64,000 nt of DNA from Lachnospiraceae bacterium (GTDB lineage Bacteria > Bacillota > Clostridia > Lachnospirales > Lachnospiraceae), in NCBI GenBank assembly GCA_024694625.1, contig JAILJP010000022.1, positions 1 through 64,000 of the forward strand. The letters run 5' to 3'. Shown in pieces: positions 380-17,963 of this stretch (the first letter of the stretch is position 1; each line of letters begins with the position of its first letter). Both the position numbers and the translations under genes were made by a program. The notes under the pieces are model-generated. The model had not been told where the DNA came from, searched no databases, and saw only the letters and a list, made by a program, of their open reading frames with translations.

Positions 380-835
380 TTACTGGATTGCTACCCAAGT
401 TCCTTCTGATTCAGCAGCTTCTACAATCAAAGGACCGTCTGTCTGCATGAATCCGGTTTTGTCTTCGGTAACTTCTCCGTTTTTCACTACAACTACCTGC
501 TCATCACCATAGAACATGCACTGAATATAGTATTCAGACTTGTCTGCTTTTCTAGAAACGGTAGCTGCAAATGTAGCACCTGCATCTTCGATTGTGTATT
601 CAATAATTGTATACTCATCATAGTCTGCATTTGCCTCGAAGACATCGTCCCCATATGTAGCCTTTAAGTCATCAAATGCGGATGCATCTGCTTCCTGTGT
701 ATCGCTGGATGCTTCTATTGTTTCTGTGCTTTCTGTAGCTGCACTTTCTTCGGATGTACTCTTACTTCCGCATCCGGCAAGAAGTCCTACTGTCATAACA
801 GTTGCCATTAATACAGTTAACAATCTCTTTCTCAT
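380..835 (-). CDS. Small secreted lipoprotein of unknown function
   Basis: 151 aa; signal peptide with lipobox LLAGC followed by a Ser/Glu/Thr-rich linker. Confidence 0.85.
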   Translation of the reverse strand: MRKRLLTVLMATVMTVGLLAGCGSKSTSEESAATESTETIEASSDTQEADASAFDDLKATYGDDVFEANADYDEYTIIEYTIEDAGATFAATVSRKADKSEYYIQCMFYGDEQVVVVKNGEVTEDKTGFMQTDGPLIVEAAESEGTWVAIQ

Positions 836-887: not shown

Positions 888-893
888 ACTATA
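888..893 (-). promoter_or_regulatory. -10 box TATAGT (extended, TGC-TATAGT) of the lipoprotein promoter
   Basis: Minus strand TTCATGCTATAGT; 27 nt downstream of the proximal direct repeat. Confidence 0.65.
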
Positions 894-920
894 GCATGAA
901 ATAAATTCAAGAAATGATAC

Positions 921-953
921 TTGTCGCAAACCGTATTCCCTTTGTCGTGAAAC
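921..953 (-). promoter_or_regulatory. Putative LytTR-type operator, site C (two direct repeats, 21-bp period)
   Basis: Minus strand GTTTCACGACAA-agggaatacg-GTTTGCGACAA, upstream of the lipoprotein gene; matches sites A and B. Confidence 0.7.
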
Positions 954-957
954 GTCT

Positions 958-2457
958 TTATTCCAAAGTAAACTCGTAAAAAGAGAAGTGCCCTTTTCCT
1001 TCAAAATGGATAAAAATAGGCTCATTCTCACTGCCGCCTTCAAGGAAAACGGTGACGGAAGCAACATCCTTTAATAGTTCAATTCTTTTAGAACCAAGGC
1101 ATCTGTCCTTTCCCCACACTTCCACTCTTCCTTTTGCATTTCCGGAAATCAAAAGCTTTATTTTCTTTGTATTGGACAAATCAAAAAACTTATACCCAAT
1201 GACGGATTTGTCACAGACGTTTTTCACATATTGCTTCGGAGGATTTTTTCCCTCCTCTTCTTTGTAATCCGGTTCGTCCTGGGTCAGGTAGGGAACGCCA
1301 AAAAATGGGCGCTTAATCATGGATAAAAATTTGGTTTTCTTCTTTCCGTAAAGATTACAACAAATATGAGCCGGATAACGTCCTTTCCCTTCTAAGGGGC
1401 CCTCATTTAATCCGCAAGAAGTCATCTCCGCCTGATAAAACTTTCCATTTTCAAAACGAATCTTTTCCGCGCAAGCCTGACGGGAAGACTGTTTACGATT
1501 GCTCTGGCGATGATAAAACACATAATACTGCCCATTGATTTCTATCAAACTTCCATGGGTATTTCCCGTATCATTGGATGCAGTGGAAATGGTACGCTCT
1601 CCTCCTTTTGTTTTTCCGTTATAGGCCAAAAGACCGATATCACCATTGGAAATCAACGTACCACCATAAACAAACCCTTTTGTAGGTTCATTGCTTACAG
1701 CATAACAAAGTTCATGACTTTGAAGGGAACTGTAAATGAAGTAATACCTTCCGTCAAATTTTCTCAAAGAAGAGGCTTCTAAGAATTCATGACCTTCGTA
1801 TCCACTGCCTTTGCTGTTTGCCTCTCCACAAACACCGATGTGCATAGGCCCCTTTTTTACCGTCAGCATATCCTTTGGATCCAACTCATAGCACATGGGT
1901 CCTTCCAAAGATGGCTTTGAGCCTTCCAAAATAATGGGATTGGACTTTAGCCCAAATCCGGTGTACAAATACAGTCTTCCGTCATCATCCAAGAAAATCC
2001 CCGGATCAAACTGCAAAGGTCCCCCTTCTTTTCCAATTGGGGTGCCATCCTCATAATGCACATATCCGTAAAACTCATACTTTCCTGCCGGTTCATCACA
2101 AACCGCCACTGAAATCATCTTGGTACCACCGATAAAGTAGTAAAGATAAAATCTTCCATCCGGCCCTGTTAACATATCCGGTGCTGCCATTCCATTGAAA
2201 AGCATCAAGCCCTTCGCCTCCGGGTCCTGTTCTCTTCGAAGAATTTCTCCCTCATAGCGCCAATCTCCCAAATCATCCAAAGGCGCGGAATAACAAACAT
2301 AGTTATTTAAGCAAAAATTCCATCCGTTAAACTTATCGTGAGAGCCATAGACATATACCCGGTCTCCCACAATGTGAGGTTCTCCGTCCGGCACGTACTC
2401 ATAGCTTGGCATATAGGGGTTAAATGCTTGTGTTTTTTCCATTTTATTTCCATCCAT
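958..2457 (-). CDS. Glycoside hydrolase family 43 protein (arabinofuranosidase/xylosidase type)
   Basis: GH43-like N-terminus (NPYMPSYEYVPDGEPHIVGDRVYVYGSHDK), FDPGIFLDDDGRLYLYTG, GHEFLEASSLRKFDGRYYFIYSS. Start may be the internal MEKTQ at 2442. Confidence 0.88.
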   Translation of the reverse strand: MDGNKMEKTQAFNPYMPSYEYVPDGEPHIVGDRVYVYGSHDKFNGWNFCLNNYVCYSAPLDDLGDWRYEGEILRREQDPEAKGLMLFNGMAAPDMLTGPDGRFYLYYFIGGTKMISVAVCDEPAGKYEFYGYVHYEDGTPIGKEGGPLQFDPGIFLDDDGRLYLYTGFGLKSNPIILEGSKPSLEGPMCYELDPKDMLTVKKGPMHIGVCGEANSKGSGYEGHEFLEASSLRKFDGRYYFIYSSLQSHELCYAVSNEPTKGFVYGGTLISNGDIGLLAYNGKTKGGERTISTASNDTGNTHGSLIEINGQYYVFYHRQSNRKQSSRQACAEKIRFENGKFYQAEMTSCGLNEGPLEGKGRYPAHICCNLYGKKKTKFLSMIKRPFFGVPYLTQDEPDYKEEEGKNPPKQYVKNVCDKSVIGYKFFDLSNTKKIKLLISGNAKGRVEVWGKDRCLGSKRIELLKDVASVTVFLEGGSENEPIFIHFEGKGHFSFYEFTLE

Positions 2458-2488
2458 TTCTTTATTAGCAAGTCAATATTTACACCAA

Positions 2489-3526
2489 TTATAAATGCTC
2501 ATTTATAAAACTGCATAATTTTTCCAACTGGTCTTGGGAATAACATCTGTCGTCTGCATGTTTTCCGTTTTCAATCACCACATAGGAAACATTTTTTTCT
2601 CCCAGTAAAGCCTTAGCATCTTCATAAAAATACTGGGACTGCAAAATGGGAACGGTAATATCGGAATCCCCGTGGCAGATCCAAATGGCCAAATCCAAAT
2701 CCGTATTTTTTTCCAAATAATACATAGGGGAAATCTCATTTATTTCTTCTTTTGTCATGTCAGAAATTTCTTTTCCCAACCAGTAGGATTCAATGGTGGT
2801 TTCCTTTGCATCCTCCGGGATATACTTTGTCACCCAGTTATTTGCAATGTCGTAAACCCAGGCGGGAAGTCCAACCTCCTTCCACTGACTATGGGCGGTT
2901 TCCATATCTATCACACCGTAGTAATCCACCAATACCGACACCTTTGCCGATACATCTCCGTAGATATCTTCATCAATGTATTCCAAATCACAAAACTCAT
3001 CGTCACCAGTCACCGCTGCCATGGTGGCCAGATATCCACCGGCAGATTCTCCCCAAATGGCAATGGAGGAGGCATCGTATCCGTATTCTTTTGCATGGGC
3101 TCTCAAATATCTCACACAGGCCTTTACATCTTCCAACGCAGCGGGATAGATTTCTTCCTGAGCCAATCGATAGTTTACGGAAGCACAGGCAAATCCATGA
3201 TCCCTGAAATAACGATACATAAGCTGTGCCTGTCGGCTTGTGGCGTCATTGCTGACAAATCCGCCACCGTGGACCAACACAAAAAGTGGGGGATTTTCCA
3301 CATCATCCGGCACATAAATATTTACATAATCCGATTCCGACACCGAAGCGTAGTTTACCTTTTCATAAAAGGTACCGCCACTCCATTCGTCTGTACTTTC
3401 ATCCAATTCATAGGTAGGGGCTGTCAAGTTATCAAACACCCACCCAATTACTTTATGATAATAAATCACACCAATGGCAATCACCAAAAGAATTACCAAG
3501 GCGATTATTCCTATCTTTTTTTTCAT
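2489..3526 (-). CDS. Membrane-anchored alpha/beta hydrolase (esterase/lipase, hormone-sensitive-lipase-like)
   Basis: HGGGF oxyanion motif, GESAGG nucleophile elbow, N-terminal TM segment, C-terminal GKHADD. Confidence 0.88.
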   Translation of the reverse strand: MKKKIGIIALVILLVIAIGVIYYHKVIGWVFDNLTAPTYELDESTDEWSGGTFYEKVNYASVSESDYVNIYVPDDVENPPLFVLVHGGGFVSNDATSRQAQLMYRYFRDHGFACASVNYRLAQEEIYPAALEDVKACVRYLRAHAKEYGYDASSIAIWGESAGGYLATMAAVTGDDEFCDLEYIDEDIYGDVSAKVSVLVDYYGVIDMETAHSQWKEVGLPAWVYDIANNWVTKYIPEDAKETTIESYWLGKEISDMTKEEINEISPMYYLEKNTDLDLAIWICHGDSDITVPILQSQYFYEDAKALLGEKNVSYVVIENGKHADDRCYSQDQLEKLCSFINEHL

Positions 3527-3586
3527 TTTTGGTCTCCTATATCCTGTTTGTCTGCTTTGATTTCAAAGGATCTTTTAAAATCACAA

Positions 3587-3610
3587 TAGGGGAAGCATAT
3601 GCTTCCCCTA
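3587..3610. repeat. Perfect palindromic hairpin inside the GH3 operon
   Basis: TAGGGGAAGCATATGCTTCCCCTA between the small membrane-protein gene and the esterase gene; weak T-run on the minus strand. Confidence 0.7.
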
Positions 3611-3627
3611 CAAAAATAATATCAATT

Positions 3628-4044
3628 CTATACTTCTTTTTGCAATGGTAAAAAGTTTGCAACAATGTTTACAATCATTGCCACCAAAGTGATTGCCTCA
3701 AAAACAATAAATGTAATGATGGTATCCACTCCGTCCAATCCTGCTACCACGTAGCCCAACTGGTTTACCATTAGATAAAAGCCTGCTCCAGCAGCACCCG
3801 CGTCAAAGATTGCTCCAAGTATAGGCATAAAGCTTACTGCTACGGTGAAATTGGAATTGGATGCTTGCTTTTTCATCATTACAATCATTCCTGCTTCCAA
3901 CAAAACTGCCAATACCAAAAATACAAAGACAACAGGCAGTGTATACATCACTTGGGTATAAACAATACATGCTACCAAAGATAATGCGGCTGCAATCAAT
4001 GTAAACATAAATCCTACAGATTTTTTCTGACTCATATCCTTCAC
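3628..4044 (-). CDS. Small integral membrane protein, four predicted TM segments
   Basis: 138 aa, strongly hydrophobic; directly downstream of the GH3 gene. Confidence 0.75.
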   Translation of the reverse strand: MKDMSQKKSVGFMFTLIAAALSLVACIVYTQVMYTLPVVFVFLVLAVLLEAGMIVMMKKQASNSNFTVAVSFMPILGAIFDAGAAGAGFYLMVNQLGYVVAGLDGVDTIITFIVFEAITLVAMIVNIVANFLPLQKEV

Positions 4045-4048
4045 CTCA

Positions 4049-7000
4049 CTATCTTCTTTCTTCTTTATATGCTTTTACTGTCATAAGTCCGGAACAAATT
4101 GTGGTTGCACCAAACAATACAATACCAAGAATAATCAACCACTGATACCAGGTAAGCACACGCTTAATCTCAGTGTTTACAGATAACCCGTTCATCGCAT
4201 TGGAATCTGCTAACTGATAGAACCAGTACTTAATGCTATTCTGCATCATTTCCTGGAATGCGGTATCTTTTGCGATTTCTGACTTGGATGCCGCCATGGT
4301 TCCGATTTCTGAGGTATCATATGCTGATGTGGTAAGGCAATTTCCACCACCGGCAAAAGTGATATCTCTCCAGTTCATATAATCCGCACCGTTAATCATA
4401 TCGGTAACAAAGGCACCTTCATAGCCCCACTCATTTCTTGAAATATTTACAAGGAGTGGTTCGTATGCACCAACAAATACGGTTCCTGCACGGTTAAATG
4501 CTGTCATAACGGAAGATGTGGTATTGGTTGCCATTGCCAACTGGAAGCAACGAAGTTCATTTTCTCTTGCCGCCTGCTCATTCATAAAGGTAGACAAACC
4601 GGAACGGTTGCTTTCCTGATGGTTGAATGCAAAATGCTTCATCTGGGTATTCAATCCCTTTGCTTCTGCACCTTCGCAAAATGCTACGGCACAAAGTCCG
4701 GTAAGGATGGAATCCTCTGAATAATATTCATGATTTCTTGCACAATAAGGTGTACGGTGTTCATTGGACCAAAGAGCATCTTCTGCAAATGCGTCACCTT
4801 CCTGTGCGATTAATTCAGCATTTAAGGTAGCTGCCATTACAGGTTCTGTAGGGAAGGTACACATAGAATATTTTGCATACTCATCATCTTCGGAAACATA
4901 AGTTGCTTCACTAGACTGAGATGCAGTCCAACGAACATAGTATCCGGCAACCTGATCAAAGGTAAATCCTACAGGTCCGTCGTTTGAGTATGTTCTGGGT
5001 AAAAGTACGGAGTCAACATTTTCAATATCATCTCCGCCTTTTTCAATAAACTGAATGGCTTCATCCAAGCTCATCTGCTGAACCAGCTTATCCCAGAATT
5101 CATCATCCAGATCTTTTACACCAATGTAATTTCCATCTTCATCAAATTCCAAAGCATCCAAAATAGTAAGACCATTGTCTTCTTCCCACTGAACGCCCTC
5201 TCCATTTTCCGTCAGTTCATAAACGCTATTGGTCAATCCTGCCATCATTTCCTCTGTTGGAGTAAATGCTTCGATGGTAGTCCAACCCTTTGTCCAATCA
5301 CTTCTGGTGGTATACTCTACCGCATCATCAATGTAAGTATTCAAATCCATAGATGAAAGCTGATTTTCCACATTTTCAGAGTAAGTAGTTGCATCAGTTT
5401 CAGCCAGATTCCAAACTACAGCATTGGCAGTGTTAATCACGTCCTTTTCTGTGGTACGAACCAAGCCTGACTCAGAACCGGTCTTATTTGCCAACACATT
5501 GTTCAATGCTTCATGGGCACCGTTTCCGATTGCAAAATAGTAATCACCGGCATCCAATACCCAGGCACCCTTTGTTCCATTGGCATTGTCTGCTGTTTCA
5601 TCATAGCTTGCAAAATAAGATGCATCAAAGGTGATTTCCACTGTTTCAGATGCTCCAGGCTGAAGTTCTGAAGTCTTTGCAAAACCAACCAACTGAATGG
5701 CAGATTTTTCAACACCCCCTGAAATATAGGGAGCCTGTACGTAAAGCTGTGCTGTGGATTTTCCTGCAACACTTCCTGTGTTTGTTACGGTAACCTTTGC
5801 TGTGGAGGTTCCTCCTACGTTTACTTCCACACTATCCAAAGTCTGTTCAAAGGTGGAATAAGACAATCCATATCCAAAGGAATAACTTACTTCATCTCCA
5901 TAGGACCAGGCACTTCCGGTAGAAGAGCCACTGGTGGAGGTAGCATTTCCCTGATTTAATACAGCATCTTCGTAACGGGTTTCATAGTATTTGTATCCGT
6001 CGTAAATGCCTTCAGACTCTACTAAATACCAATCCCCTTTATCATTGGCATCCAAAGCGTCGGATGCATCGGAGTTGGAAGCGTTGGCATAGGTATAAAC
6101 GCCGAAATTTACCATAGCAGGTGAAGATGCTGAATTTACCGCGTAGGTATCTGTCAAAGAGCCGGAAGGATTTACTTCACCGCTTAACACATCAGCAACT
6201 CCCAAGAATCCATATACACCAGGATCTCCTACCCAGATAATGGAATCAATTTCGGAATCGTTCTTTAAGTCTTCAATTTCAATGGCATTGGAAGCGTTAA
6301 TCATAACTACTACCTTAGTGCTATGGGCCTTTGCCAATGCAATCATTTCTTTTTCATAATCGGACAATGCCAAAGGTCTTTCATAACTGTCATCCGTACC
6401 GGTGGTCATTTCCGTTTCATAATCTGCTGCCTCTGATGAATCTCTTGAGATTACCACCAAAGCAACCGTTCCATCTGCAGAAGAAAGGACATCATCAGTA
6501 TACAAAGAAGAAGGCAATTCCCCTACGTTGTAAGTGGAAGGATTTTCATAAATCGGTCCAAAAGAAGGAGAAAGCGCATGTCCTGCTGTTCTTGCATATT
6601 CCTTTGCTTCCTCAGAAGAATACAAATCAATCATGGTCTGATTCAATGTGTATCCTTTTTCCATTAAGGCTTTTTCAATATCGTAACTCTCCTGTCCGGC
6701 TTCATCATTTACCGTTGCAGAGGAACCGATCATTCCCCCCAATGTGGGATAATGGGAGTTTAATCCCCAAAGGGTTACAGTTTCTGAAGAGATATCCAAA
6801 GGCAATGCCAAATTGTCATTTTTTAACAATACACATCCTTCCTCTGAGATTTCCTCCGCCAAAGCATTTTTGGCTTCCACTACATCAGATAATGATTCAT
6901 AATCCGAATCAAAATAGGTCACATCTTCATCACCGTCTCCGGTGTTCACATACTTAAAATTTGATGTTCCCAGTCGCGTGTTAATAATAGCTGTATTTGC

Positions 7001-7090
7001 ATAAGCAATGGTCGTTCCGCATACAACTATCGTCAGGAGGGATGCACTGATTGCTGTCAGTCCCCTCCATTTTCGAAATTTCTTTCCCAT
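4049..7090 (-). CDS. Membrane-anchored glycoside hydrolase family 3 protein with permuted domain order (GH3_C - Fn3-like - GH3_N)
   Basis: GH3_C motifs (GCVLLKNDNLALPL, GDPGVYGFLGVADVLSGEVNPSGSLTDTY) precede GH3_N motifs (KHFAFNHQESNRSG, WGYEGAFVTDM). TM helices at both termini. Confidence 0.92.
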   Translation of the reverse strand: MGKKFRKWRGLTAISASLLTIVVCGTTIAYANTAIINTRLGTSNFKYVNTGDGDEDVTYFDSDYESLSDVVEAKNALAEEISEEGCVLLKNDNLALPLDISSETVTLWGLNSHYPTLGGMIGSSATVNDEAGQESYDIEKALMEKGYTLNQTMIDLYSSEEAKEYARTAGHALSPSFGPIYENPSTYNVGELPSSLYTDDVLSSADGTVALVVISRDSSEAADYETEMTTGTDDSYERPLALSDYEKEMIALAKAHSTKVVVMINASNAIEIEDLKNDSEIDSIIWVGDPGVYGFLGVADVLSGEVNPSGSLTDTYAVNSASSPAMVNFGVYTYANASNSDASDALDANDKGDWYLVESEGIYDGYKYYETRYEDAVLNQGNATSTSGSSTGSAWSYGDEVSYSFGYGLSYSTFEQTLDSVEVNVGGTSTAKVTVTNTGSVAGKSTAQLYVQAPYISGGVEKSAIQLVGFAKTSELQPGASETVEITFDASYFASYDETADNANGTKGAWVLDAGDYYFAIGNGAHEALNNVLANKTGSESGLVRTTEKDVINTANAVVWNLAETDATTYSENVENQLSSMDLNTYIDDAVEYTTRSDWTKGWTTIEAFTPTEEMMAGLTNSVYELTENGEGVQWEEDNGLTILDALEFDEDGNYIGVKDLDDEFWDKLVQQMSLDEAIQFIEKGGDDIENVDSVLLPRTYSNDGPVGFTFDQVAGYYVRWTASQSSEATYVSEDDEYAKYSMCTFPTEPVMAATLNAELIAQEGDAFAEDALWSNEHRTPYCARNHEYYSEDSILTGLCAVAFCEGAEAKGLNTQMKHFAFNHQESNRSGLSTFMNEQAARENELRCFQLAMATNTTSSVMTAFNRAGTVFVGAYEPLLVNISRNEWGYEGAFVTDMINGADYMNWRDITFAGGGNCLTTSAYDTSEIGTMAASKSEIAKDTAFQEMMQNSIKYWFYQLADSNAMNGLSVNTEIKRVLTWYQWLIILGIVLFGATTICSGLMTVKAYKEERR

Positions 7091-7168
7091 GAAAATTTCC
7101 CCTTTCTATAACCTCCGGATGTAACCGAACCAGTTTCGATATATTACTACCATCCGTATTTCATCTTA

Positions 7169-7174
7169 AATATA
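7169..7174 (-). promoter_or_regulatory. -10 box TATATT (extended, TGC-TATATT) of the GH3 operon promoter
   Basis: Minus strand GAATGCTATATTT; 27 nt downstream of the proximal direct repeat. Confidence 0.65.
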
Positions 7175-7195
7175 GCATTCCGATTTTCCGAAAAA

Positions 7196-9571
7196 TTATA
7201 GCTGTCGTAAACCAATCGTCACTTGTCGTAAACGGTTTGTTTCGTCAGAAACACTTACTACCACTTCGTTGGCATCCTCCTTTGCTTTTACAACGCAAAG
7301 GGCCTGACCGTAGTAAGTAAAGGTCTTATCTTTGTCATAGCCGTCCTTGTTATAGGAGCAGGCATTTCCCAGTCCCAAAAGAGTTCCGCCTTCTACCTTT
7401 ACCGATACCTGATGTTTTTCCATGGGCTTTAACACGCCCTTTTCATCCGTATAACGAATAGGAATATACACAAGGTCTCCCTGATGAATCACTGACTCTT
7501 CCGGCGTAACATTTAAAATCGTTTCTTTTGATGCTGTGTATAAGGAGTTTTCTTCCAGCAATTTTCCCTCTTTATCATAAGTTTTCACCTGTAAGGTTCC
7601 CGGCGAATAGACAAGTTTGTAATGGGCTCTGCATTCTTTGCCCAATCTCTTTTTACCTAGAGAAACTCCATTTAAAAAGAGTTCGCAAGTCTCTCCTTTT
7701 CCGTAGACTTCCACAAAAGCATTCATTCCCTCACACCCGGGATAGGTCCAGCTTTCCAAAGCATCTGTCATCTTCCATGCAGAAGGAGAATGTTTTCCTC
7801 TTTGATAGACAGGCTTTACCGCAATGGCAGGCTTTTTTTGTTTATCAAATACAACTCTGGTATAGGCCGCTTCTCCGTTGGGATTTCCCAAAATATCAAT
7901 ACGTCCGCTTCCTGCGGTTAACCAACCCCATTCAGGTGAATTCTTTGGCGCATAATCCTCATATTCCCAGGCACCAATTCCCGCTTCTCCGATATAATCC
8001 ATTCCGGCCCAAACAAAATCACCGATGATTCTTGGATTTTCCTTTGCAATCTCCATAAACTGCCATGCATCTTTACAGAAGGTTTCACTTCCTAAAATCA
8101 AACGGGAAGGGTATTTTCTCAAATCTTTTTTATAACGTAAAATACCATAATTGTATCCGGCAATATCCATGGCAGCATAGGCATCCCTTGTCTTTACGTC
8201 ACAGGCATAAATGGTAGCCCCCAACTTCATGGTTTTGTCTCCAAAGATTCCTGCTAAGGTATTGTAAAATTCACTTCCTACCGGTTTTTGTTTTTTCTTA
8301 GTGTCTTCCTCTGCCTTGTCATCGGAATACACACCGAATCCTGCAGAACTTAAAAAGTTAAAGAAAATGTTGATTCCACAGCTCACCGGTCTGCTGTCAT
8401 CCAGTTCATGCAAACGGTCAGTGAAATCCTGGGTCAGTTTAATTCCCTTTTTTTGCGCAGTTTCCGCTACTTCATTTCCGGTGGAATACATGATTACAGA
8501 AGGATGGTTGAAATCCTTGTATACCATGTCCTTTAAGTCCTGCTGCCAGTTCTCCATTAAATAATTTACATAATCATATTTTGTCTTATGAATGTACCAA
8601 GCATCCACATACTCATCCATTACCAACATTCCCAAGCGGTCACAGGCACGAAGCAAAGCTTTGGAGCAGGGGTTATGGGCACTTCTTAAGGCATTATACC
8701 CTTGTTCCAAATGAAGTCTTACCTTTCGCTCTTCTGCCTTGTCATAAGCGCAAGCTCCCAACACACCATTGTCGTGATGGATGCAGGCACCTTTTAGCAA
8801 CACCCGCTTACCGTTAATGGTCATTCCCTCCTTCGGTGTCCAACGAAGTTCACGGATACCAAATTCTTCCGTCACTTCATCCTCGCCGTAGGATACTTTG
8901 ATTCGATATAAATAAGGAGACTCCGGTGACCAGAGATTTCCCTCTTCCAATTCCACTTCAAACCAATGGTCCACCGGTCCTTTTTGAGAAAGCACAACCT
9001 TCCCCTCTTGATCCAAAATTAAAATCGTAACTTCCTCTTTTCCACCGTAGACCTCAGCCTTTATTCCAAGGCGAATGGGCGCAATGGATAACGTCTTTAC
9101 CTTTACTCCATCCAATGCAATATGTTCTTTTGGCAACTCATACAACCAAACCGGACGATAAATACCGGTTCCGGAATACCATCTGCTGTTGGGCTGATCA
9201 GAATTTCTGGCAATTACACGAAGGGAATTTTTTTCTCCATAGGTAATGTAGTCATCCAAGGTTACATAAAACCCGGTATAACCATAGGGATGAAAGCAAG
9301 CCTTGTTCCCGTTTACATACACCTCAGCGTTGTGATAAACCCCTTCAAATTCCAACACCAAATGTTTTTGTTGCTTTTCTTTTTCTACAAAAAAAATGGT
9401 CTCATACTCATAGTCTTTTGCGTCAAACCATCCGATATTGTGCATACCGTCACTGTCATTGCTTCTTGTTTCATGAATCATGGCATCATGGGGAAGATTC
9501 ACCTCATGCCATGCTACATCTTCTCCCAGAGGACGCACCCGCCAATTTTTATTAAAATCTTGTTTTCTCAT
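7196..9571 (-). CDS. Glycoside hydrolase family 2 protein (beta-galactosidase/beta-glucuronidase type)
   Basis: N-terminal FNKNWRVRPLGEDVAWHEVNLPHDA, acid/base STGNEV, putative nucleophile LGSETF. Confidence 0.92.
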   Translation of the reverse strand: MRKQDFNKNWRVRPLGEDVAWHEVNLPHDAMIHETRSNDSDGMHNIGWFDAKDYEYETIFFVEKEKQQKHLVLEFEGVYHNAEVYVNGNKACFHPYGYTGFYVTLDDYITYGEKNSLRVIARNSDQPNSRWYSGTGIYRPVWLYELPKEHIALDGVKVKTLSIAPIRLGIKAEVYGGKEEVTILILDQEGKVVLSQKGPVDHWFEVELEEGNLWSPESPYLYRIKVSYGEDEVTEEFGIRELRWTPKEGMTINGKRVLLKGACIHHDNGVLGACAYDKAEERKVRLHLEQGYNALRSAHNPCSKALLRACDRLGMLVMDEYVDAWYIHKTKYDYVNYLMENWQQDLKDMVYKDFNHPSVIMYSTGNEVAETAQKKGIKLTQDFTDRLHELDDSRPVSCGINIFFNFLSSAGFGVYSDDKAEEDTKKKQKPVGSEFYNTLAGIFGDKTMKLGATIYACDVKTRDAYAAMDIAGYNYGILRYKKDLRKYPSRLILGSETFCKDAWQFMEIAKENPRIIGDFVWAGMDYIGEAGIGAWEYEDYAPKNSPEWGWLTAGSGRIDILGNPNGEAAYTRVVFDKQKKPAIAVKPVYQRGKHSPSAWKMTDALESWTYPGCEGMNAFVEVYGKGETCELFLNGVSLGKKRLGKECRAHYKLVYSPGTLQVKTYDKEGKLLEENSLYTASKETILNVTPEESVIHQGDLVYIPIRYTDEKGVLKPMEKHQVSVKVEGGTLLGLGNACSYNKDGYDKDKTFTYYGQALCVVKAKEDANEVVVSVSDETNRLRQVTIGLRQL
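7202..7233 (-). promoter_or_regulatory. Putative LytTR-type operator, site B (two direct repeats, 21-bp period)
   Basis: Minus strand GTTTACGACAA-gtgacgattg-GTTTACGACAG; lies in the last codons of the GH2 gene, upstream of GH3. Confidence 0.75.
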
Positions 9572-9584
9572 AATAAAAACCTTT

Positions 9585-11183
9585 CTACTCTAAAAAAGAA
9601 AGTATATTTTTTTTCTTCTTTTTTTGTTGATATTTTTGTTCCTCTTCCCGGCGCATCTGCTCTTCCGGTTCCACCCATTCTCTTCCTTCCGCAAGCACCT
9701 GTTCCTTTTGTCTTTGACGAATAATCTGCTGATCCTTTGCCACTTCTTTTTCCACTTTCAAAAAGCTCATAAGAACTACTAAAATCGCATAGCAAATTAA
9801 CTCAATTCCCAAATAACAAAGCACCAGCATGTTTCCTACAGAATCGTTTTGCACAGATGCGGTGGCATCATATCCACTGGCAGTCAACAAGGCATTGATA
9901 ATACCGTTTCCCAGACCTGTCATTCCCACCATAATGGCTCCATAAACTGACATGGTAAATCCGTCGCTTCGGAATCCGTTTTTAGCTTCCAAATGATCCA
10001 ACACATCGGACAAAAGAGCCAATGTCACATACATTGCCGGAATAGATCCGATTCCCTTTAAAATCACACCGATACAAACAATCAAAAAGCTGTGTACATT
10101 GAAAAAGCTAACGCTTCCTCCAATCACGGAAATCAACAGTCCCAAAACAATGGACTTTTGTTTTCCCAGCTTTGCCGCAATAGGCCAGGCAACCACCATA
10201 CCAATAGCGGTAGGGATTCCTCCAATAAGTCCCAAGGTTCCCATTGCTGTTCCTGCTGTAGCCTCTGTGGTGATTCCATCAAACATCCATCTGCAGTAAT
10301 AACTCATAGAACCGTTTTTCACCAATCCACCGAATTGGAACAAAAGGAAATACAAAATAATTATCCACCAGTACTTTTCCTTTACACAAACTGCAATCTG
10401 CTGTTTCATAGGAAGTTTTTCTTCCTTGATATTGAGCCGCATGTTTTCTTCTGTAATACGTTCTCTGGTGTTGTAGTACTCCAGCAAAATACCCACAAAG
10501 GTAAAAACGCAAAGCACCATCATAATAACGCGCCAATGATTGTAACTGGCTTTTTGATCAATCACTCCGTTATGATCTACAAACAAATAACTTTGCAACA
10601 AAATGGGAACCAAAATAGAAGAACCAATTCCCAAAGATGCCACACCACTGGCATTGGATAGGGTTGCCAATAGTCCTCTCTTCTTTTGATCTCTGGTGGA
10701 AAGATTCACCATAGAACTGTGGGAGGTATAATAGAATGGATAAGAAACGGCATAATACATATTGTAAGAAAACGCCATCCAAATCATTTGTACCATTGGA
10801 CTGGAATTGGTGGGGGTTAAGAATAATAATCCCACCGCCACCGTTACCAGAGGAGCCGAAAGAAGCATAATCGGACGTGCCTTTCCCTGTGATGTGTGGA
10901 TGGTATCCATAAATCGTCCTACCAGTAAATTTCCCAGTATAACAAAAAGTACGGACACAATAGGGAGCAATGCAGAAAAAACTCCAAATTTACTTTTATC
11001 TGTCCATCCGATTACGTCGGAATAATATCGATTCAAATAAGAGGCAAAAATCGCATTGGAAATCAGTGCCATAAAAGGAGCCAGAAAGTATCCCAGCAAC
11101 ATTTCATTTGGCTTTACCTCAGCGGATTTTATCTTTGTTTGAAAAATCTTTTTATCAAATATGCTTTCTTTTTCAGCGTTCAT
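9585..11183 (-). CDS. GPH/MFS-family sugar:cation symporter
   Basis: 532 aa, about 12 TM segments, GPH-like layout; embedded between GH78 and GH2 genes. Confidence 0.85.
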   Translation of the reverse strand: MNAEKESIFDKKIFQTKIKSAEVKPNEMLLGYFLAPFMALISNAIFASYLNRYYSDVIGWTDKSKFGVFSALLPIVSVLFVILGNLLVGRFMDTIHTSQGKARPIMLLSAPLVTVAVGLLFLTPTNSSPMVQMIWMAFSYNMYYAVSYPFYYTSHSSMVNLSTRDQKKRGLLATLSNASGVASLGIGSSILVPILLQSYLFVDHNGVIDQKASYNHWRVIMMVLCVFTFVGILLEYYNTRERITEENMRLNIKEEKLPMKQQIAVCVKEKYWWIIILYFLLFQFGGLVKNGSMSYYCRWMFDGITTEATAGTAMGTLGLIGGIPTAIGMVVAWPIAAKLGKQKSIVLGLLISVIGGSVSFFNVHSFLIVCIGVILKGIGSIPAMYVTLALLSDVLDHLEAKNGFRSDGFTMSVYGAIMVGMTGLGNGIINALLTASGYDATASVQNDSVGNMLVLCYLGIELICYAILVVLMSFLKVEKEVAKDQQIIRQRQKEQVLAEGREWVEPEEQMRREEEQKYQQKKKKKNILSFLE

Positions 11184-13455
11184 AATTCACCTCAGTCAGT
11201 TTTATCTTTCTTTTATGGATTCCCTCAAAAAGCTGTTCTTTTGAACCATCAGGGAGTTCCAATTCGCAGGATGTTTCCTTTGGAACCTCTAGTTGAATTT
11301 CAAATTCATCTCCCAGCTTCCAGGAAACAGAAATGGTTCCAAAAGGTGTATCCACCCTTCCTTTTGCTTCATGTAAATCCCCACCCAATATAGGTTTTAC
11401 CATAAAGGTTTTATATCCCGCCTCTAACGGTTCCAAGCCTAGGATTCTTCTGTAGAAGAAGGCGCCTACCGCACCGGAGGCATAATGATTGTAGGAAATC
11501 ATAGTATCCGTACCATCATCTCCAATAGGACAATTGCCTTTTTCATCCAATCCGTCCCATCGTTCCCAAATCGTGGTTGCCCCCATCTTTACTTCGTACA
11601 GCCAGGAGGGACAGTTGGTATTTAAAAGCATTTTGTAGGCCACGTCTGCAAATCCGTTATCCGCCAGTGCAAATAAAATATAAGGCGTTCCCGGAAATCC
11701 CGTTCCAATGCAGTAATTGTTTTTCTTTACTAATTCAGCCAAATTAGCCGCTGCTTTTTTCTTTGTCTTTTCATCAAAAATACCAAAATAAATAGGAAGC
11801 ACGTAGGCCGTTTGGAATTCTTCCAAAAGTTTTCCCTCTCCGTCGGTAAAGTGTTTCAAATACGCTTCCCCTACCTTTTTGGAATAGGCATCATAAGCCT
11901 TTGCATCCTCCCTCTTATGTAGAATGGTTGCAATCTTTGCCAAAAGGGATGTGGTATGGTACAAACTTGCCGTTGCGGTCCAAGGACTTCTCTTCTGCCA
12001 CTGGCTCATATTGTCCACATCCGGTGCCACCCAATCGCCAAAATGCAACAGATGAAAGGTGTCCCAAATATAGCGTTTTGTTCCAACAGAGGCAAACGCC
12101 GCCCATCTTTTACTGGCATTGGCGTAGGCTTTCATCATCTCGTAGTTTTCTTCCAACACCTGCTCATCACCATAAGCCATATACAAAGCATAGGGCACCA
12201 TAATACAGGCGTCTCCCCAAAAGTCCACCGCCATAGTAGGCATGGTTTCCGGGAATCCATATCCCTGAGAAGGAATGGTGTTTGGAATTCCCCCTGTTTT
12301 TTTCTGTTCGCTTCTCATATCCCGAAGCCACTTTTTCAAAAACTTCTCCATTTTGAAATTGTAGCAAGCGGTTTGTGCAAACACTGCAATATCTCCGGTC
12401 CATCCCATACGCTCATCCCTTTGAGGGCAGTCCGTAGGAATTTCAAAGAGATTGGAGGTTGCTCCCCACAAAATATTTTGCTGCAGGCGATTGATTTTAT
12501 CATTGTCACAGGAAAACTCTCCGTTTCTCTGCGTGGCGGAAGTCAGCACCTTTGCCTTTAAACAAAAGCTATCCACCTGTTCTTTTTCCAATCCCCTTAC
12601 GGATACATATCGAAATCCCATATAGGTATGTCTTGGGCTAAAGCTTTGCTGCCCTTCTTTGCAAGTGTATTCCACTCTTGCCTTGGCAGTTCTTAAAAAG
12701 TCTCTTTGCAAAGTGCCATCCGGTCGCAATACTTCGCTGTGTAAAAACAAAAGCTTTTGACCTTCTTTTCCAATAATGTCAAAGGAAATCACTCCGGCAA
12801 AATTTTGACCAAAGTCAAAAATATATTCCTCTTCCACCCGGTTTACACTAAGGGGAAACAATTCTTTTACTTCCTGCACCGGTGCTCGGTCGTCCCGAAT
12901 CAGAGCGGGGTGAATCTTTAATTCTTCTTTTTCGGCGATTTGCCATACATGGTCTTTTACGGAGACGGTGGCATCATAGACTTCTCCGTCATAAATGCAA
13001 GCCTCCTTCAAAGGTCCGTTTTGACTTACCAGCCAGTTTTCATCAGTAACGATTACTTCTTCGGTTCCGTCTTCATAGGTGATGGTAATTTCAGCGGCAA
13101 AAGCCTGACGTTTGGCAGTAATGCGATTCTTTCTGGTAAATCCAAATGAGCCCACGGCCCAGCCGCCAGTTACCACCGAGAAGAGAGAGTTTTTTCCGGA
13201 AAGTAGTAATTCGGTAATATCATAGGTTTGATACAAAAGGGTATGTTTATATGAAGTAAACCCCGGAGCAAAATACTGATTTCCAACGACGTTTCCATTT
13301 AACAAAAGGGTGTAAATCCCCAAAGCCGTAGCTGAGATTTCGGCCTTTTTTACCGGCTTTTCAATATCCAATTCCCTGCGAAACATCATGGGAATCGGTG
13401 AAATTCCTTTTTCTTTGAATATATAATTTCCCTTTGTAATAAAATGATTGATCAT
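11173..13455 (-). CDS. Alpha-L-rhamnosidase (GH78)
   Basis: GH78 motifs (FAPGFTSYKHTLLYQTYDIT, EIPTDCPQRDERMGWTGD). Start moved from ORF-track 13563 to MINHF at 13455 because GGAGCG precedes it. Confidence 0.92.
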   Translation of the reverse strand: MINHFITKGNYIFKEKGISPIPMMFRRELDIEKPVKKAEISATALGIYTLLLNGNVVGNQYFAPGFTSYKHTLLYQTYDITELLLSGKNSLFSVVTGGWAVGSFGFTRKNRITAKRQAFAAEITITYEDGTEEVIVTDENWLVSQNGPLKEACIYDGEVYDATVSVKDHVWQIAEKEELKIHPALIRDDRAPVQEVKELFPLSVNRVEEEYIFDFGQNFAGVISFDIIGKEGQKLLFLHSEVLRPDGTLQRDFLRTAKARVEYTCKEGQQSFSPRHTYMGFRYVSVRGLEKEQVDSFCLKAKVLTSATQRNGEFSCDNDKINRLQQNILWGATSNLFEIPTDCPQRDERMGWTGDIAVFAQTACYNFKMEKFLKKWLRDMRSEQKKTGGIPNTIPSQGYGFPETMPTMAVDFWGDACIMVPYALYMAYGDEQVLEENYEMMKAYANASKRWAAFASVGTKRYIWDTFHLLHFGDWVAPDVDNMSQWQKRSPWTATASLYHTTSLLAKIATILHKREDAKAYDAYSKKVGEAYLKHFTDGEGKLLEEFQTAYVLPIYFGIFDEKTKKKAAANLAELVKKNNYCIGTGFPGTPYILFALADNGFADVAYKMLLNTNCPSWLYEVKMGATTIWERWDGLDEKGNCPIGDDGTDTMISYNHYASGAVGAFFYRRILGLEPLEAGYKTFMVKPILGGDLHEAKGRVDTPFGTISVSWKLGDEFEIQLEVPKETSCELELPDGSKEQLFEGIHKRKIKLTEVNYER

Positions 13456-13480
13456 ACTTCGCTCCTTTATGTCTGATATT

Positions 13481-13486
13481 ACTATA
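13481..13486 (-). promoter_or_regulatory. -10 box TATAGT of the GH78 operon promoter
   Basis: Minus strand CGGGTATAGTAATATC; 27 nt downstream of the proximal direct repeat. Confidence 0.65.
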
Positions 13487-13513
13487 CCCGAAATTTGAAG
13501 GACATTTTCCCTT

Positions 13514-13545
13514 CTGTCGTAAACAAACAAAAATCTGTCGCAAAC
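13514..13545 (-). promoter_or_regulatory. Putative LytTR-type operator, site A (two direct repeats, 21-bp period)
   Basis: Minus strand GTTTGCGACAG-atttttgttt-GTTTACGACAG upstream of GH78. Confidence 0.75.
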
Positions 13546-13577
13546 AAAAAAATCTCCTGCCAAAACAGCAGAAGATT
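13546..13577 (-). terminator. Rho-independent terminator of the kinase/regulator operon
   Basis: Minus strand AATCTTCTGC-loop-GCAGGAGATT (one G-U pair) followed by a T-run that abuts site A. Confidence 0.8.
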
Positions 13578-13581
13578 CTTG

Positions 13582-14901
13582 TTATATATGTGATTGTGGA
13601 ATTAAAATACGAGACTCAAACCATCCGTCTTCGAAAGAAAATGTCAAGGAACCCCCATATTTTTTAACGGTGTTTTGGATGCTCTTCATCCCATAACCGT
13701 GATATCGTTTGTCCTGTTTCGTTGTTTGAACCAATCCATTTTTAATGGTGGGTTTACCATCACAGCAGTTCTCCAAACGAATGCGCACAAATCCCTTTTG
13801 CTGGGAAATTGCCAAATGGATCAGTCGTCGTTCCTTTGCCTCTATTTTTTCCACACTTTCAATGGCATTATCCAAAAGATTTCCAAATAGGGAACTTAAA
13901 TCCATGGCATCCATAAAGGAAAGGGCATCCCCATCCGCCACCACCGTAAGTTCAATCCAGTGATTTTGGCAGTAGATACTTTTTCCTGTCAAAATGGTGT
14001 CCAAAACCTTGTTACCCGTTTTGTTTTGGGCTTCATAGAGTTTAATGTCCGCTTCCATTTTGTTTAAGTATTCCATAGACTCATCTTTATTGCTCAGCCC
14101 CTCTTTCAAAAGGCCGATTTGATGCTTCAAATCATGGTATTTGATATTCACCACTTCCATGCTTTTTTCCAGCACTTCATAATTGGTGTACTGCATTTCC
14201 AAATCATCCAAAAGACGGTCTCGTTCCAAACGAATATGCATGTCGGACATTTGAATATAAAAGGCATATAAAATCGCCAGTCCTCCCATATCCACAGTGG
14301 TACGCACCACAAAAATAACCATTGCAAAAGTTCCACCGAAGAGCTGGTTTCCGATCAAATAACTGATGTTACTCATAATATATACTGCAACGGTAATCAA
14401 TATACTGGCCCACAGTTCTCCGGAGTGAATCTTAAATTCCAGACTTCGTTTGGCGAGATTTTTTTCCAACGTCCAAAAGAAGATTCCCATAAGAGAGTGA
14501 ATCACCACCAGCATGAGAATTTCCATAAATAAGGTCGTTGGATATTTTAATACCGTCACTGCGATGTAATACATCATCCATTCGAAGGAGGACAACAACT
14601 CTCCTATCATAAAAGCCCGAATGGTGACAAAAATTGCAGTCTTCCAATCATAAACCGTATTAAATAGCACAAGACCATACATTCCCAATGCATAAAACAA
14701 CACCAAAAAAATAAAATAGCGTCTCTCACCTGTAGATACCACAATCACCGGTGCGATTATGACAAAATACAATCCATGGGAGAGAGCCATCATCCAATTG
14801 GATTTTTTTCTTTCCGAAGCGCCGATGACAAGAAAAGCCGCCAGCACATATCCGATGGCATAATAGATTCCGGGGGTATTGATGGTTGTAAACTCAGTCA
14901 T
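13582..14901 (-). CDS. Membrane sensor histidine kinase, GHKL/AgrC-like (HPK10 type)
   Basis: Multi-TM N-terminus, H-box NIKYHDLKHQI, GHKL ATPase SSLFGNLLDNAIESV...YHGYGMKSIQNTVKKYGG. Confidence 0.9.
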   Translation of the reverse strand: MTEFTTINTPGIYYAIGYVLAAFLVIGASERKKSNWMMALSHGLYFVIIAPVIVVSTGERRYFIFLVLFYALGMYGLVLFNTVYDWKTAIFVTIRAFMIGELLSSFEWMMYYIAVTVLKYPTTLFMEILMLVVIHSLMGIFFWTLEKNLAKRSLEFKIHSGELWASILITVAVYIMSNISYLIGNQLFGGTFAMVIFVVRTTVDMGGLAILYAFYIQMSDMHIRLERDRLLDDLEMQYTNYEVLEKSMEVVNIKYHDLKHQIGLLKEGLSNKDESMEYLNKMEADIKLYEAQNKTGNKVLDTILTGKSIYCQNHWIELTVVADGDALSFMDAMDLSSLFGNLLDNAIESVEKIEAKERRLIHLAISQQKGFVRIRLENCCDGKPTIKNGLVQTTKQDKRYHGYGMKSIQNTVKKYGGSLTFSFEDGWFESRILIPQSHI

Positions 14902-15608
14902 TAGCCCACCTCATTCATATAATTATTCAGCGCATCCAAAAACTCTTTTTTTCTGGCACGGGAAACCATCAGTCGTTCTCCTCCAACCAAAGCATCCCCG
15001 TTTTCAAAACCATCCACATATTCCAAATTCACCAAGTATGCCTTGTTGCAGCGAAAGAAGGATTCTTCTTTTAGGTTTTCTTCCGCTTCTCTCATGGTTC
15101 CACGAATCATAAGATTTCCATCTTTGGTGTGATAAATCAAATCATGGTCCCGCACTTCCACATAGTACAAATCAGAGATTCGAATTTTTTGAACCCCACC
15201 TCGATAATTCAGCGTAAGGTAGGTCTCCTCCTGCTTTTTCATCTTGGAAAGAGCTCTGGTAAGTCTCTGGGAAAATGCATAATAGTTGATTGGCTTTAAG
15301 ACATAATCCAAGGCATCCACGGCGTAGCCCTGCATGGCATACTGGGGAGAGTTGGTAATAAACATAATAATTACCTCTTCATCCACTTCCCGGATCTTTT
15401 TGGCGGCTGACATACCGTCCATAAACTGCATTTCAATATCCATCAGAATAATATCAAAATGCCCCTTATATTCTTCGGCAATATCTTCACCGTCTTCAAA
15501 CCACTCTACTGAGAACTTTATATTCTGTTCTTCTTCGTATCGCAGAATATATTTTTTTAAACTTGCAGCGTAATTTTTATCATCTTCTACGATTGCTACC
15601 TGAATCAT
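14901..15608 (-). CDS. Response regulator with LytTR DNA-binding domain
   Basis: REC domain (VEDDKNYAAS, DIILMDIEM, LKPINYYAF) plus LytTR (YYVEVRDHDLIYHTKDGNLMIRGTMREAEENL..FFRCNKAYLVNLEYV). Confidence 0.95.
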   Translation of the reverse strand: MIQVAIVEDDKNYAASLKKYILRYEEEQNIKFSVEWFEDGEDIAEEYKGHFDIILMDIEMQFMDGMSAAKKIREVDEEVIIMFITNSPQYAMQGYAVDALDYVLKPINYYAFSQRLTRALSKMKKQEETYLTLNYRGGVQKIRISDLYYVEVRDHDLIYHTKDGNLMIRGTMREAEENLKEESFFRCNKAYLVNLEYVDGFENGDALVGGERLMVSRARKKEFLDALNNYMNEVG

Positions 15609-15621
15609 TGTTCCCTCACAT

Positions 15622-16917
15622 CTAACCTGCTTTTGGAATGGAAATGGTCACATTGGTTCCAACATCCAAGGTACTTTCCACTTCCATGGTTCCATTACAC
15701 ATATCTGTAATTCGTTCCCGGACACTGGCAATTCCTATATGGGAAATCCGTCCGTTTTTATCTACCGGATTGGAATTTACATTAAACCCAACCCCGTCGT
15801 CAATTACTTCAATCAAATATTGGTCTTTATTTTCTTTTACCCGCAATGTTACACAGCCACCCTCAGGTCTTTGGCAAACACCATGTTTTACCGCATTTTC
15901 CACAATAGGCTGAATACTTAAGGGCGGTATTTCAAAATCAAGATTATCGATATCATACTCCACCTGAAGTTCATCTTCAAAGCGCATTTTCTCCAATTCC
16001 AAATACCCTTTTACATGCCGAATCTCAGAATCGATGGGTATTAAATGAGAAATTGAAAGGGATTCAAAATTTCCTCTTAGGTAATCAGAAAACATCCCCA
16101 AGGCCTTTTGTGCCTTTTTTGCATCTGTATCACATAGATAATAAATGCTGTTTAACACATTAAAAATCATATGAGGCTGTAGCTGGGACTCTACCAGTTT
16201 TACCTGCATATCTTTTAATTCAATTTCCTTTTTTCTAAGCATTTCATTTCGATCTTCATTGTAATAAAAATACTGAAACAAAATAGAGAATCCAAGTCCA
16301 AGATTTTGTAACTGTAACGGAGGTCGAAATACAATCTGAAGAATCAACGCCGATAAAACCAGTATAAAATAACTGATCGTAGCCCGAAGTAAGGACGGGC
16401 GTAGTTTTTTCCGATAGTGAAATACCACCAAAAGCACAATCACCATGGCCAAGGTACTAAGGATCTGAGATGTCAAAAACATGGAGCCTCTATGATATGC
16501 GCCATTTTCGTCATAATAAAAATACAAATGTGTCCAATGGGAAAAAGCAGCCATTAAAGCGTTAAAAATGCAGATTCCGGTAACGAGACGTTTTATGGCT
16601 ACAACACCTCTTTCTCCTTCCAAGAAAATCCCCACATAATGGGTGAAAAGAATAAAGAATATGTATGCCATAATGAAATTGGACAAACATACAATCTTTA
16701 AGACAATAATGAAATAATCCCCTGTAAAACAAACAATCTGATATGCCAGACTGTCTAGCGCCATAAGCACTGCCCCAACAATCATCATTGCGTTAATGGT
16801 ATGACCTTTCGGTCCTTTATTTTTTACTGCGCAAATACCATAACCGGCAGCCCATAGGCACATAAAGGCCAAAACCATCTCTACGGCAGCCAAATACATG
16901 TAAACGTTTTCCACCAT
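15622..16917 (-). CDS. Membrane sensor histidine kinase, LytS/YesM-like (His_kinase + HATPase)
   Basis: LVESQLQPHMIFNVLNSIYYLCDTD, PLSIQPIVENAVKHGV, DDGVGFN. Start set to MVEN after GGGAGGAAAT. Confidence 0.9.
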   Translation of the reverse strand: MVENVYMYLAAVEMVLAFMCLWAAGYGICAVKNKGPKGHTINAMMIVGAVLMALDSLAYQIVCFTGDYFIIVLKIVCLSNFIMAYIFFILFTHYVGIFLEGERGVVAIKRLVTGICIFNALMAAFSHWTHLYFYYDENGAYHRGSMFLTSQILSTLAMVIVLLVVFHYRKKLRPSLLRATISYFILVLSALILQIVFRPPLQLQNLGLGFSILFQYFYYNEDRNEMLRKKEIELKDMQVKLVESQLQPHMIFNVLNSIYYLCDTDAKKAQKALGMFSDYLRGNFESLSISHLIPIDSEIRHVKGYLELEKMRFEDELQVEYDIDNLDFEIPPLSIQPIVENAVKHGVCQRPEGGCVTLRVKENKDQYLIEVIDDGVGFNVNSNPVDKNGRISHIGIASVRERITDMCNGTMEVESTLDVGTNVTISIPKAG

Positions 16918-17069
16918 ATTTCCTCCCATTCTTTTTTCATTATAGCAAAAATGAATAAAAAATCATATTTCACCTTTTCCATTTTGCCATATTGTTTTCA
17001 CTACAAAAACCATGATACAATAACCTCACTTTAAATCTGTTCCCGCAGGATATGTCAAATGGAGGAAAT

Positions 17070-17963
17070 ATGACATATCAAGAATTTAAAGAAACAATCT
17101 ACAAAACCGTAACCAATCGTTACGATTCTCGTGCCAACGTGCACCTTTCCACTTATACCAAAAATAATGACGTAAAACTGGACGGACTTTCCCTAAGCAG
17201 AAAAGACAGTCTGGTATCACCCACTGTGTACCTAAATGATTTTTATCCTTTGTTGGATCAGGGCGCTTCAATAGATGAAATTGTCCAAAAAATCATTGCA
17301 ACCTTCGAAAATGCCAAGGGGGTAAAAGGATTTCATCCAAAGGAGATTTCCGACTTTTCCAAAATCAAAGGCTCTGTATTTTTTAAACTCATTGGGAAAG
17401 AAAGCAATCAAAATCTGCTAAAAGATGTTCCCTACATGGAATACCTGGATTTGGCCATTGTTTTTTGTATTATGGTCAATCTAAAAGACGGTGAATGGGG
17501 CTCGATTCTAATACAGAATCATTTATTGGAATGTTGGAAGCTCTCCAAAGAGGATTTGTTTGAGTTTGCAAAGGTGAATACCTATCAATTGTTTCAGCCT
17601 TCCCTGACGCCCATTGAACAACTTCTGCAAAGGATGATTTCCCCGGAAGAACAGGACCTTTTTCCTACACTTACCCCCTCTTTTCCCATGTTTGTTGCTA
17701 CAAACTCCAGACAGGCCAATGGGGCAACCGTCATTTGCTACCCTGATTTTTTAAGGAAGATTTCCGAGTCCATGAACACGGATTTTTATATTCTCCCCTC
17801 AAGTATTCATGAGGTGATTTTGGTTCCTATGGACAATGGAATCAATATCAATGATTTAACTCAGATGGTACAGCAGGTAAACAAAACTCAGTTGGAACCG
17901 GAAGAAGTGTTATCCAACCACGCCTACTATTACTGCCGTCAAAAGAACAAAATTATGTATTAA
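17070..17963 (+). CDS. DUF5688-like protein of unknown function
   Basis: About 297 aa; start set to MTYQEF preceded by GGAGGAAAT. Resembles the DUF5688 proteins common in Lachnospiraceae. Confidence 0.8.
   Translation: MTYQEFKETIYKTVTNRYDSRANVHLSTYTKNNDVKLDGLSLSRKDSLVSPTVYLNDFYPLLDQGASIDEIVQKIIATFENAKGVKGFHPKEISDFSKIKGSVFFKLIGKESNQNLLKDVPYMEYLDLAIVFCIMVNLKDGEWGSILIQNHLLECWKLSKEDLFEFAKVNTYQLFQPSLTPIEQLLQRMISPEEQDLFPTLTPSFPMFVATNSRQANGATVICYPDFLRKISESMNTDFYILPSSIHEVILVPMDNGININDLTQMVQQVNKTQLEPEEVLSNHAYYYCRQKNKIMY

Follow-up and report, generated by a model that had tools for sequence, protein, structure and literature searches.

We analysed a window of 64,000 nucleotides from a Lachnospiraceae genome (assembly GCA_024694625.1, contig JAILJP010000022.1, positions 1 to 64,000), in which three operons are each preceded by a pair of direct repeats at one fixed distance from the -10 box. 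Judging from sequence comparison, these sites (A, B and C) are very probably the operators of a LytTR response regulator encoded at 14901..15608 (minus strand, as are the sites and the genes of the cluster), and would define a shared activator regulon comprising a GH78-MFS_2-GH2 operon, a GH3-membrane protein-esterase-GH43 operon and a lipoprotein gene. We read them as a LytTR regulon because the repeats are paired, their distance to the promoter is fixed, and the layout is conserved in relatives.

Three probable operators with a common geometry

Each operator consists of two direct repeats of about 11 bp with a period of 21 bp, ending exactly 27 nt before the -10 box. On the minus strand, site A (13545..13481) reads GTTTGCGACAG-N10-GTTTACGACAG-N27-TATAGT, site B (7233..7169) reads GTTTACGACAA-N10-GTTTACGACAG-N27-TATATT, and site C (952..888) reads TTTCACGACAA-N10-GTTTGCGACAA-N27-TATAGT. 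The operators thus occupy 13514..13545, 7202..7233 and 921..952, and the -10 boxes lie at 13481..13486 (promoter A, GH78-MFS_2-GH2 operon), 7169..7174 (promoter B, GH3 operon) and 888..893 (promoter C, lipoprotein gene), the latter two being extended (TGC-TATAnT). A sequence-only reading of this DNA had proposed three identical 21-bp direct-repeat operators; all three sites are present, but they are near-identical only, with repeats of about 11 bp at a 21-bp period, and the register of site C begins at 952 and not at 953, the 12-mer noted there being one base too long. The distance of 27 nt to TATAGT, TATATT and TATAGT that it gave is exact at all three sites, and so is its remark that a good -35 is lacking (TTGACA is matched at two of six positions at most, at 16-18 nt spacing).

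The T-run of the intrinsic terminator of the GHKL kinase gene (hairpin at 13546..13577, minus strand, -17.2 kcal/mol, z -4.55) directly abuts operator A. Terminators also meet operators at two other loci: at L051 (16160-16245) the terminator of the kinase gene abuts or overlaps the operator, and at L157 (1485-1545) the hairpin encloses the second half-site. Operator B is located in the 3'-terminal part of the GH2 gene, within its last codons (7196-7233; C-terminal peptide RLRQVTIGLRQL, then stop), such that the same DNA is protein code and regulator site at once; this is likewise so in a same-genus relative, G001 (L154 507-544, overlapping a GH2 open reading frame [ORF]).

Across the whole 2.34-Mb host genome the operator pattern, allowing up to three mismatches, was found at exactly sites A, B and C (one match for the reversed-pattern control), and a stricter pattern that includes the -10 box again gave three (one for the reversed control at up to one mismatch). 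We estimate that approximately 4e-4 exact matches including the -10 box are expected from base composition, as compared with the three observed. The motif is therefore confined to the cluster in this genome, and not scattered through it.

The aligned half-sites read (A)CCGTTTRCGACA and include the LytTR 9-mer layout (9 bp with a 12-bp gap), in agreement with the accepted arrangement of 9-bp repeats 12 bp apart (PMC2766830) and with the earlier suggestion of 9-bp repeats at a period of about 21. Compared with the tables in PMC6193735, the consensus of 22 aligned sites (see below), (A)C(C)GTTTRC-GACA, conforms to the family 9-mer type ACC.[CT]TTA., of which ACCACTTAC and ACCGCTTGT are examples; AlgR sites resemble it (CCGTTTGGC; PMC4064291). 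At site A the match is weaker over the first three positions of the 9-mer (TTTGTTTGC). The sites thus show what is expected of LytTR-type operators: a period of 21 at A to C (20 or 21 in relatives), a fixed promoter distance and a weak -35. The regulator, for its part, has the composition of the AgrA/LytR type, with a receiver and a LytTR domain above cut-off (PF00072, 3.6e-17; PF04397, 1.3e-18) and a GHKL kinase gene alongside; it reads FFRCNKA where AgrA has its FFRCHNS motif. Among PDB sequences the regulator matched mainly receiver domains, along with ComE, and no closer relative.

Relatives with orthologous regulators

We collected 80 named loci in a profile scan of genome contigs with an alignment of regulators, the loci being picked by the regulator only. 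The nearest are from rumen Lachnospiraceae and Butyrivibrio metagenome-assembled genomes (MAGs), and further ones from Anaerobium, Lachnoclostridium, Mediterraneibacter, Konateibacter, Gemmiger and others. A position weight matrix (PWM) built from the six half-sites of the window only, with a -10 box required at 26-28 nt, gave 12 matches with a score of at least 24 in these loci, versus one in the reversed sequences; 11 of the 12 lie after the GHKL gene and/or before a GH78, GH2, MFS_2 or GH3 gene (L055-L059, L071, L072, L102). The co-occurrence with regulator orthologues that the sequence-only reading had put forward as a check was thus found, the motif recurring beside corresponding operons.

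The strength of the motif follows the identity of the regulator. A site lies directly behind the kinase gene in each of the five loci whose regulator reaches 68% identity or more (68-87%); at 62-63%, L060, L061, L064, L071 and L072 carry strong or weaker forms; and below this the exact motif is rare (L102). At or below 62-63% the bases drift, and the period (21, sometimes 20) and the distance to the -10 box (26-28 nt) are kept. This pattern, in which operator sequence drifts with the regulator as geometry stays, supports the LytTR regulon that had been proposed. In G001, whose regulator is 87% identical, there are four exact sites, three before GH78 genes and one before GH3: the first GH78; the GH3; a second GH78-MFS_2 copy, which may be a strain variant in this MAG; and a third GH78 of 1196 aa that is followed by a chemotaxis receptor gene.

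A test that makes no use of the motif gave the same period. For 74 loci we searched the 290 nt that follow the GHKL gene for 10-mer repeats with at least nine matches, using order-1 shuffles for comparison. Repeats of period 21 were found in 12 of the 74 loci (0.75 expected) and of period 20 in seven (0.55 expected); period 12 occurred in five loci, and the other periods from 13 to 40 never in more than three. When a -10 box at 25-29 nt was added, 12 loci remained at period 21, four at period 20 and none to three at other periods. On manual reading the -10 box stands at 26-28 nt in a common register even in loci whose repeats now read GTTTATGCA or GATTGTGCA.

Among the 22 aligned sites the distance to the -10 box is 27 nt in 18 and 26 nt in four, the -35 has one to four of six matches, and the information lies chiefly in the half-sites. 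Two bases ahead of the 11-mer, a C that was absent from the PWM is kept in 17 of the 22 copies of each half. A broader model trained on other genomes only ranked window site C first, B second and L039, a paralogous system of the host genome, third.

The proposed binder, its partner kinase and the putative target genes

Which regulator binds sites A to C has to be weighed against the other LytTR proteins of the host. The genome has ten LytTR domains besides that of the adjacent regulator; nine belong to full-length regulators that share 34-45% identity with it, and the motif TTYRCGAC is found also beside non-orthologous LytTR systems; a paralogue, or several by cross-talk, rather than mainly the adjacent regulator could on these grounds bind the sites. 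We regard this as improbable: all three sites cluster at the regulator 14901..15608, the sites of G001 are again at corresponding genes, and the motif sequence tracks the identity of this regulator. Moreover, the best-supported paralogue operator differs and adjoins its own regulator (L039: GTTTGAGTCA/GTTTGTGACA, period 20). A strict scan of the ten other LytTR loci of the host genome found the A-C motif in none. Between the repeats and the -10 box, the paralogues L039, L051, L052 and L054 have a GC-rich inverted repeat.

Binding of the repeats by a factor outside the LytTR family that serves the cluster, of AraC, LacI or OmpR type, is still less likely. In related bacteria most glycan clusters have AraC or LacI regulators (PMC5320581), and direct repeats are bound by OmpR-type regulators too (PMC6222199); no DNA-binding domain of these three types, however, is found by Pfam among the window genes at 380-21031, and the half-site includes the LytTR 9-mer. 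The exact pattern occurs 11 times in 397 Lachnospiraceae genomes, seven times in the host and G001 and four times elsewhere (G208, G306, G324, G015), and all four of these matches outside orthologous loci adjoin LytTR and/or GHKL genes that belong to different systems. Coincidence or a functionless local duplication of promoter segments is the least likely reading: two copies of a repeat may by themselves be due to chance and the sites before the two GH78-MFS_2 copies of G001 are near-duplicates, but the repeats, their period and the -10 distance outlast the intervening bases, the layout spans genera with different flanking genes, and the enrichment of 21-bp repeats is motif-free.

Several points weigh against assigning the sites to the adjacent regulator. 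The 22 aligned sites were partly chosen with the motif, and the conservation of their half-sites is to that extent circular; most of the orthologues under approximately 62% identity in the 80 loci are without the exact motif; and the ten other LytTR domains of the host might bind A to C as well. Since the host genome is a draft in 123 contigs, 88% complete, it may contain sites beyond these three. The whole-genome scan at up to three mismatches found no site before the regulator's own operon, and autoregulation through the A-C motif was rejected on this ground. Family-wide, at up to one mismatch, the total for the reversed control exceeded the forward total, such that the pattern alone is unspecific and gene adjacency, rather than count, carries weight; matches at one mismatch are noisy (seven matches; of those inspected, one lies beside a LytTR gene).

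If the adjacent regulator binds sites A to C, as we favour, a glycan-derived or related signal would act on the GHKL kinase and lead to the phosphorylated regulator, two molecules of which would sit side by side on one face of the DNA, at half-sites centred near -45 and -66. Two helical turns apart and just upstream of the -35 position, they would recruit RNA polymerase to three promoters that lack a -35 of their own.

The GHKL-type histidine kinase (13582..14901; PF14501, 1e-28), which the sequence-only reading had left unmentioned, is encoded downstream of the regulator and overlaps its stop by one base. GHKL homologues are found in all 80 related loci, and on this gene content we take the protein to be the conserved partner kinase. 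A second, LytS-like histidine kinase (15622..16929; PF06580) is absent from the orthologous, 87%-identical locus: in G001 (L055) the cobalt-transport genes (window 18491-21031) directly precede the regulator, with no LytS-like kinase. As an obligate partner the LytS-like kinase was rejected for this reason; it may be an accessory input in the host genome. In the window it and a DUF5688 gene (together 15622-17963) separate the cobalt-transport genes from the regulator, and both are absent from the G001 locus. As to an agr-like peptide quorum-sensing system, which would have a peptide precursor and a processing gene (AgrD/AgrB) next to the pair, no AgrB-type Pfam match was found among the window proteins scanned at 380-33670, short peptide ORFs being outside that survey.

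The gene order on the minus strand is LytS-like kinase, LytTR regulator, GHKL kinase, terminator, site A, GH78, MFS_2, GH2, and then site B, GH3, membrane protein, esterase, GH43, site C and lipoprotein. The first operon encodes a GH78 alpha-L-rhamnosidase (11173..13455), an MFS_2 (GPH-type) sugar transporter (9585..11183; PF13347, 4.6e-64) and a GH2 glycosidase (7196..9571). We placed the GH78 start at ATG 13455 because the listed TTG start at 13563 lies upstream of the -10 box; the ATG, behind an AGGAG and with a short leader, is likelier. The second operon encodes a GH3 enzyme of permuted order (GH3_C, Fn3, GH3_N) with a hydrophobic segment at each end (4049..7090), a hydrophobic membrane protein of 138 aa without Pfam match (3628..4044), a BD-FAE-type esterase (2489..3526; PF20434, 5e-48) and a GH43 glycosidase (958..2457; PF04616, 2.2e-18). 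Site C precedes the gene of a small lipoprotein (380..835), a homologue of which lies within the corresponding cluster of L061 and L064. An ORF of 130-160 aa follows GH3 in many related loci too. From GH78 together with GH2, GH3, GH43 and the esterase, our guess is that the substrate is a rhamnosylated plant glycan or glycoside.

Farther along the window, a single ORF (23271-26096) joins amino-acid permease, histidine kinase and receiver domain in one protein (a transporter-sensor fusion), and is followed by a receiver-GGDEF-EAL protein (21570-23252).

LytTR-GHKL pairs, glycan clusters and known systems

The association seen in the window recurs widely. At least one of GH78, GH2, GH3 and GH43 is present in 71 of the 80 related loci, and among the regulator-selected loci of at least 12 kb, 65 of 69 have GH78, GH2, GH3 or GH43 within 10 kb; the gene counts are 57 for GH3, 40 for MFS_2 and 35 for GH78. 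The host genome itself has 11 LytTR domains and 17 GH3 genes. For all ten full LytTR regulators with a GHKL kinase (contigs C6, C17, C22, C64 [two], C72, C96, C113, C118 and C120) a GH3 gene lies within approximately 10 kb, usually adjacent, and the eleventh domain is a fragment at a contig end; most of the 17 GH3 genes are near a LytTR-GHKL pair. A GH3 enzyme encoded next to the regulator typically has about 1000 aa and, in the Pfam-checked copies, is mostly permuted (GH3_C, Fn3, GH3_N). At L036, L038, L042 and L043 the operator candidates before GH3 score no higher than the reversed control and are at most suggestive. At L041 (8290-8400), where a GH3 gene and a LytTR regulator gene diverge, the DNA between them contains a perfect repeat of 10 bp (TTGGCAGATA, period 21); TATAAT follows after 27 nt in the direction of the regulator, and the element is possibly a shared, autoregulatory operator.

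The type of switch is known. VirR boxes of the Clostridium perfringens VirSR system, also LytTR, are paired direct repeats just upstream of the -35 at a constant promoter position, and VirR activates by positioning RNA polymerase (PMC2838878); its targets are toxins and regulatory RNAs, whereas those proposed for A to C are glycan enzymes. The promoters of the streptococcal LytTR Regulatory Systems (LRS) and bacteriocins (HdrR, BrsR) and those of SilA share the 9-bp repeats, 12-bp gap and period of 21, and some LRS/bacteriocin promoters share the extended -10 TGnTATAnT (PMC6193735, PMC2766830); from repeat to -10 there are 33 nt in a typical LRS (10+6+17) and 32 nt at A to C. An LRS has a membrane inhibitor, no kinase, and is autoregulated, whereas the host system has a receiver-type regulator and a GHKL kinase, with no operator seen at its own promoter; on these differences we rejected membership of the LRS class.

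The link of LytTR-GHKL pairs to GH3 and GH78 has been only partly noted before. Kelly et al. (2010) describe three LytTR regulators of Butyrivibrio proteoclasticus near secreted GH3 enzymes with a C-terminal helix (PMC2914790); PUL7, 21 and 33 of strain B316 resemble the window in that a LytTR regulator adjoins a secreted GH3 carrying a membrane helix at its C-terminus. In its available part that account describes no operator, partner kinase or GH78 link, and its target set differs from that of the host. In Sheridan et al. (2016) one LytTR regulator is listed for a glycan cluster of Roseburia (PMC5320581): the Ros-7 gpPUL of Roseburia intestinalis likewise has a LytTR response regulator, a histidine kinase and a GPH transporter, and differs in having also AraC and an ABC transporter, with arabinoxylan predicted and, in the available portion, no operator given. 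We found no paper giving an operator for LytTR-GHKL glycan systems in a search mostly outside subscription journals. The sequence-only reading had called this an undescribed local regulon; the target set is indeed not described in the papers searched, but the regulon is not purely local, the LytTR-GHKL-GH3/GH78 association recurring widely in Clostridia.

We tentatively suggest, as a possibility that we would not yet favour, that LytTR-GHKL pairs are a lineage-expanded glycan-sensing family in Clostridia, with an operator variant of its own for each pair and a membrane-anchored, permuted GH3 ectoenzyme in the signalling unit (making or removing the kinase ligand). Such a family would parallel, on the Gram-positive side, the hybrid two-component systems of Bacteroides. 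The pairing of regulators with glycan clusters is little known in Gram-positive bacteria of the gut and rumen; in this window the regulator can be read side by side with operators, promoters and targets. The operator geometry allows targets to be predicted from sequence for many uncharacterised LytTR systems, and the link of LytTR-GHKL pairs to GH3 and GH78 suggests that a regulator class known above all for virulence, competence and bacteriocins plays a large part in foraging on plant glycans.

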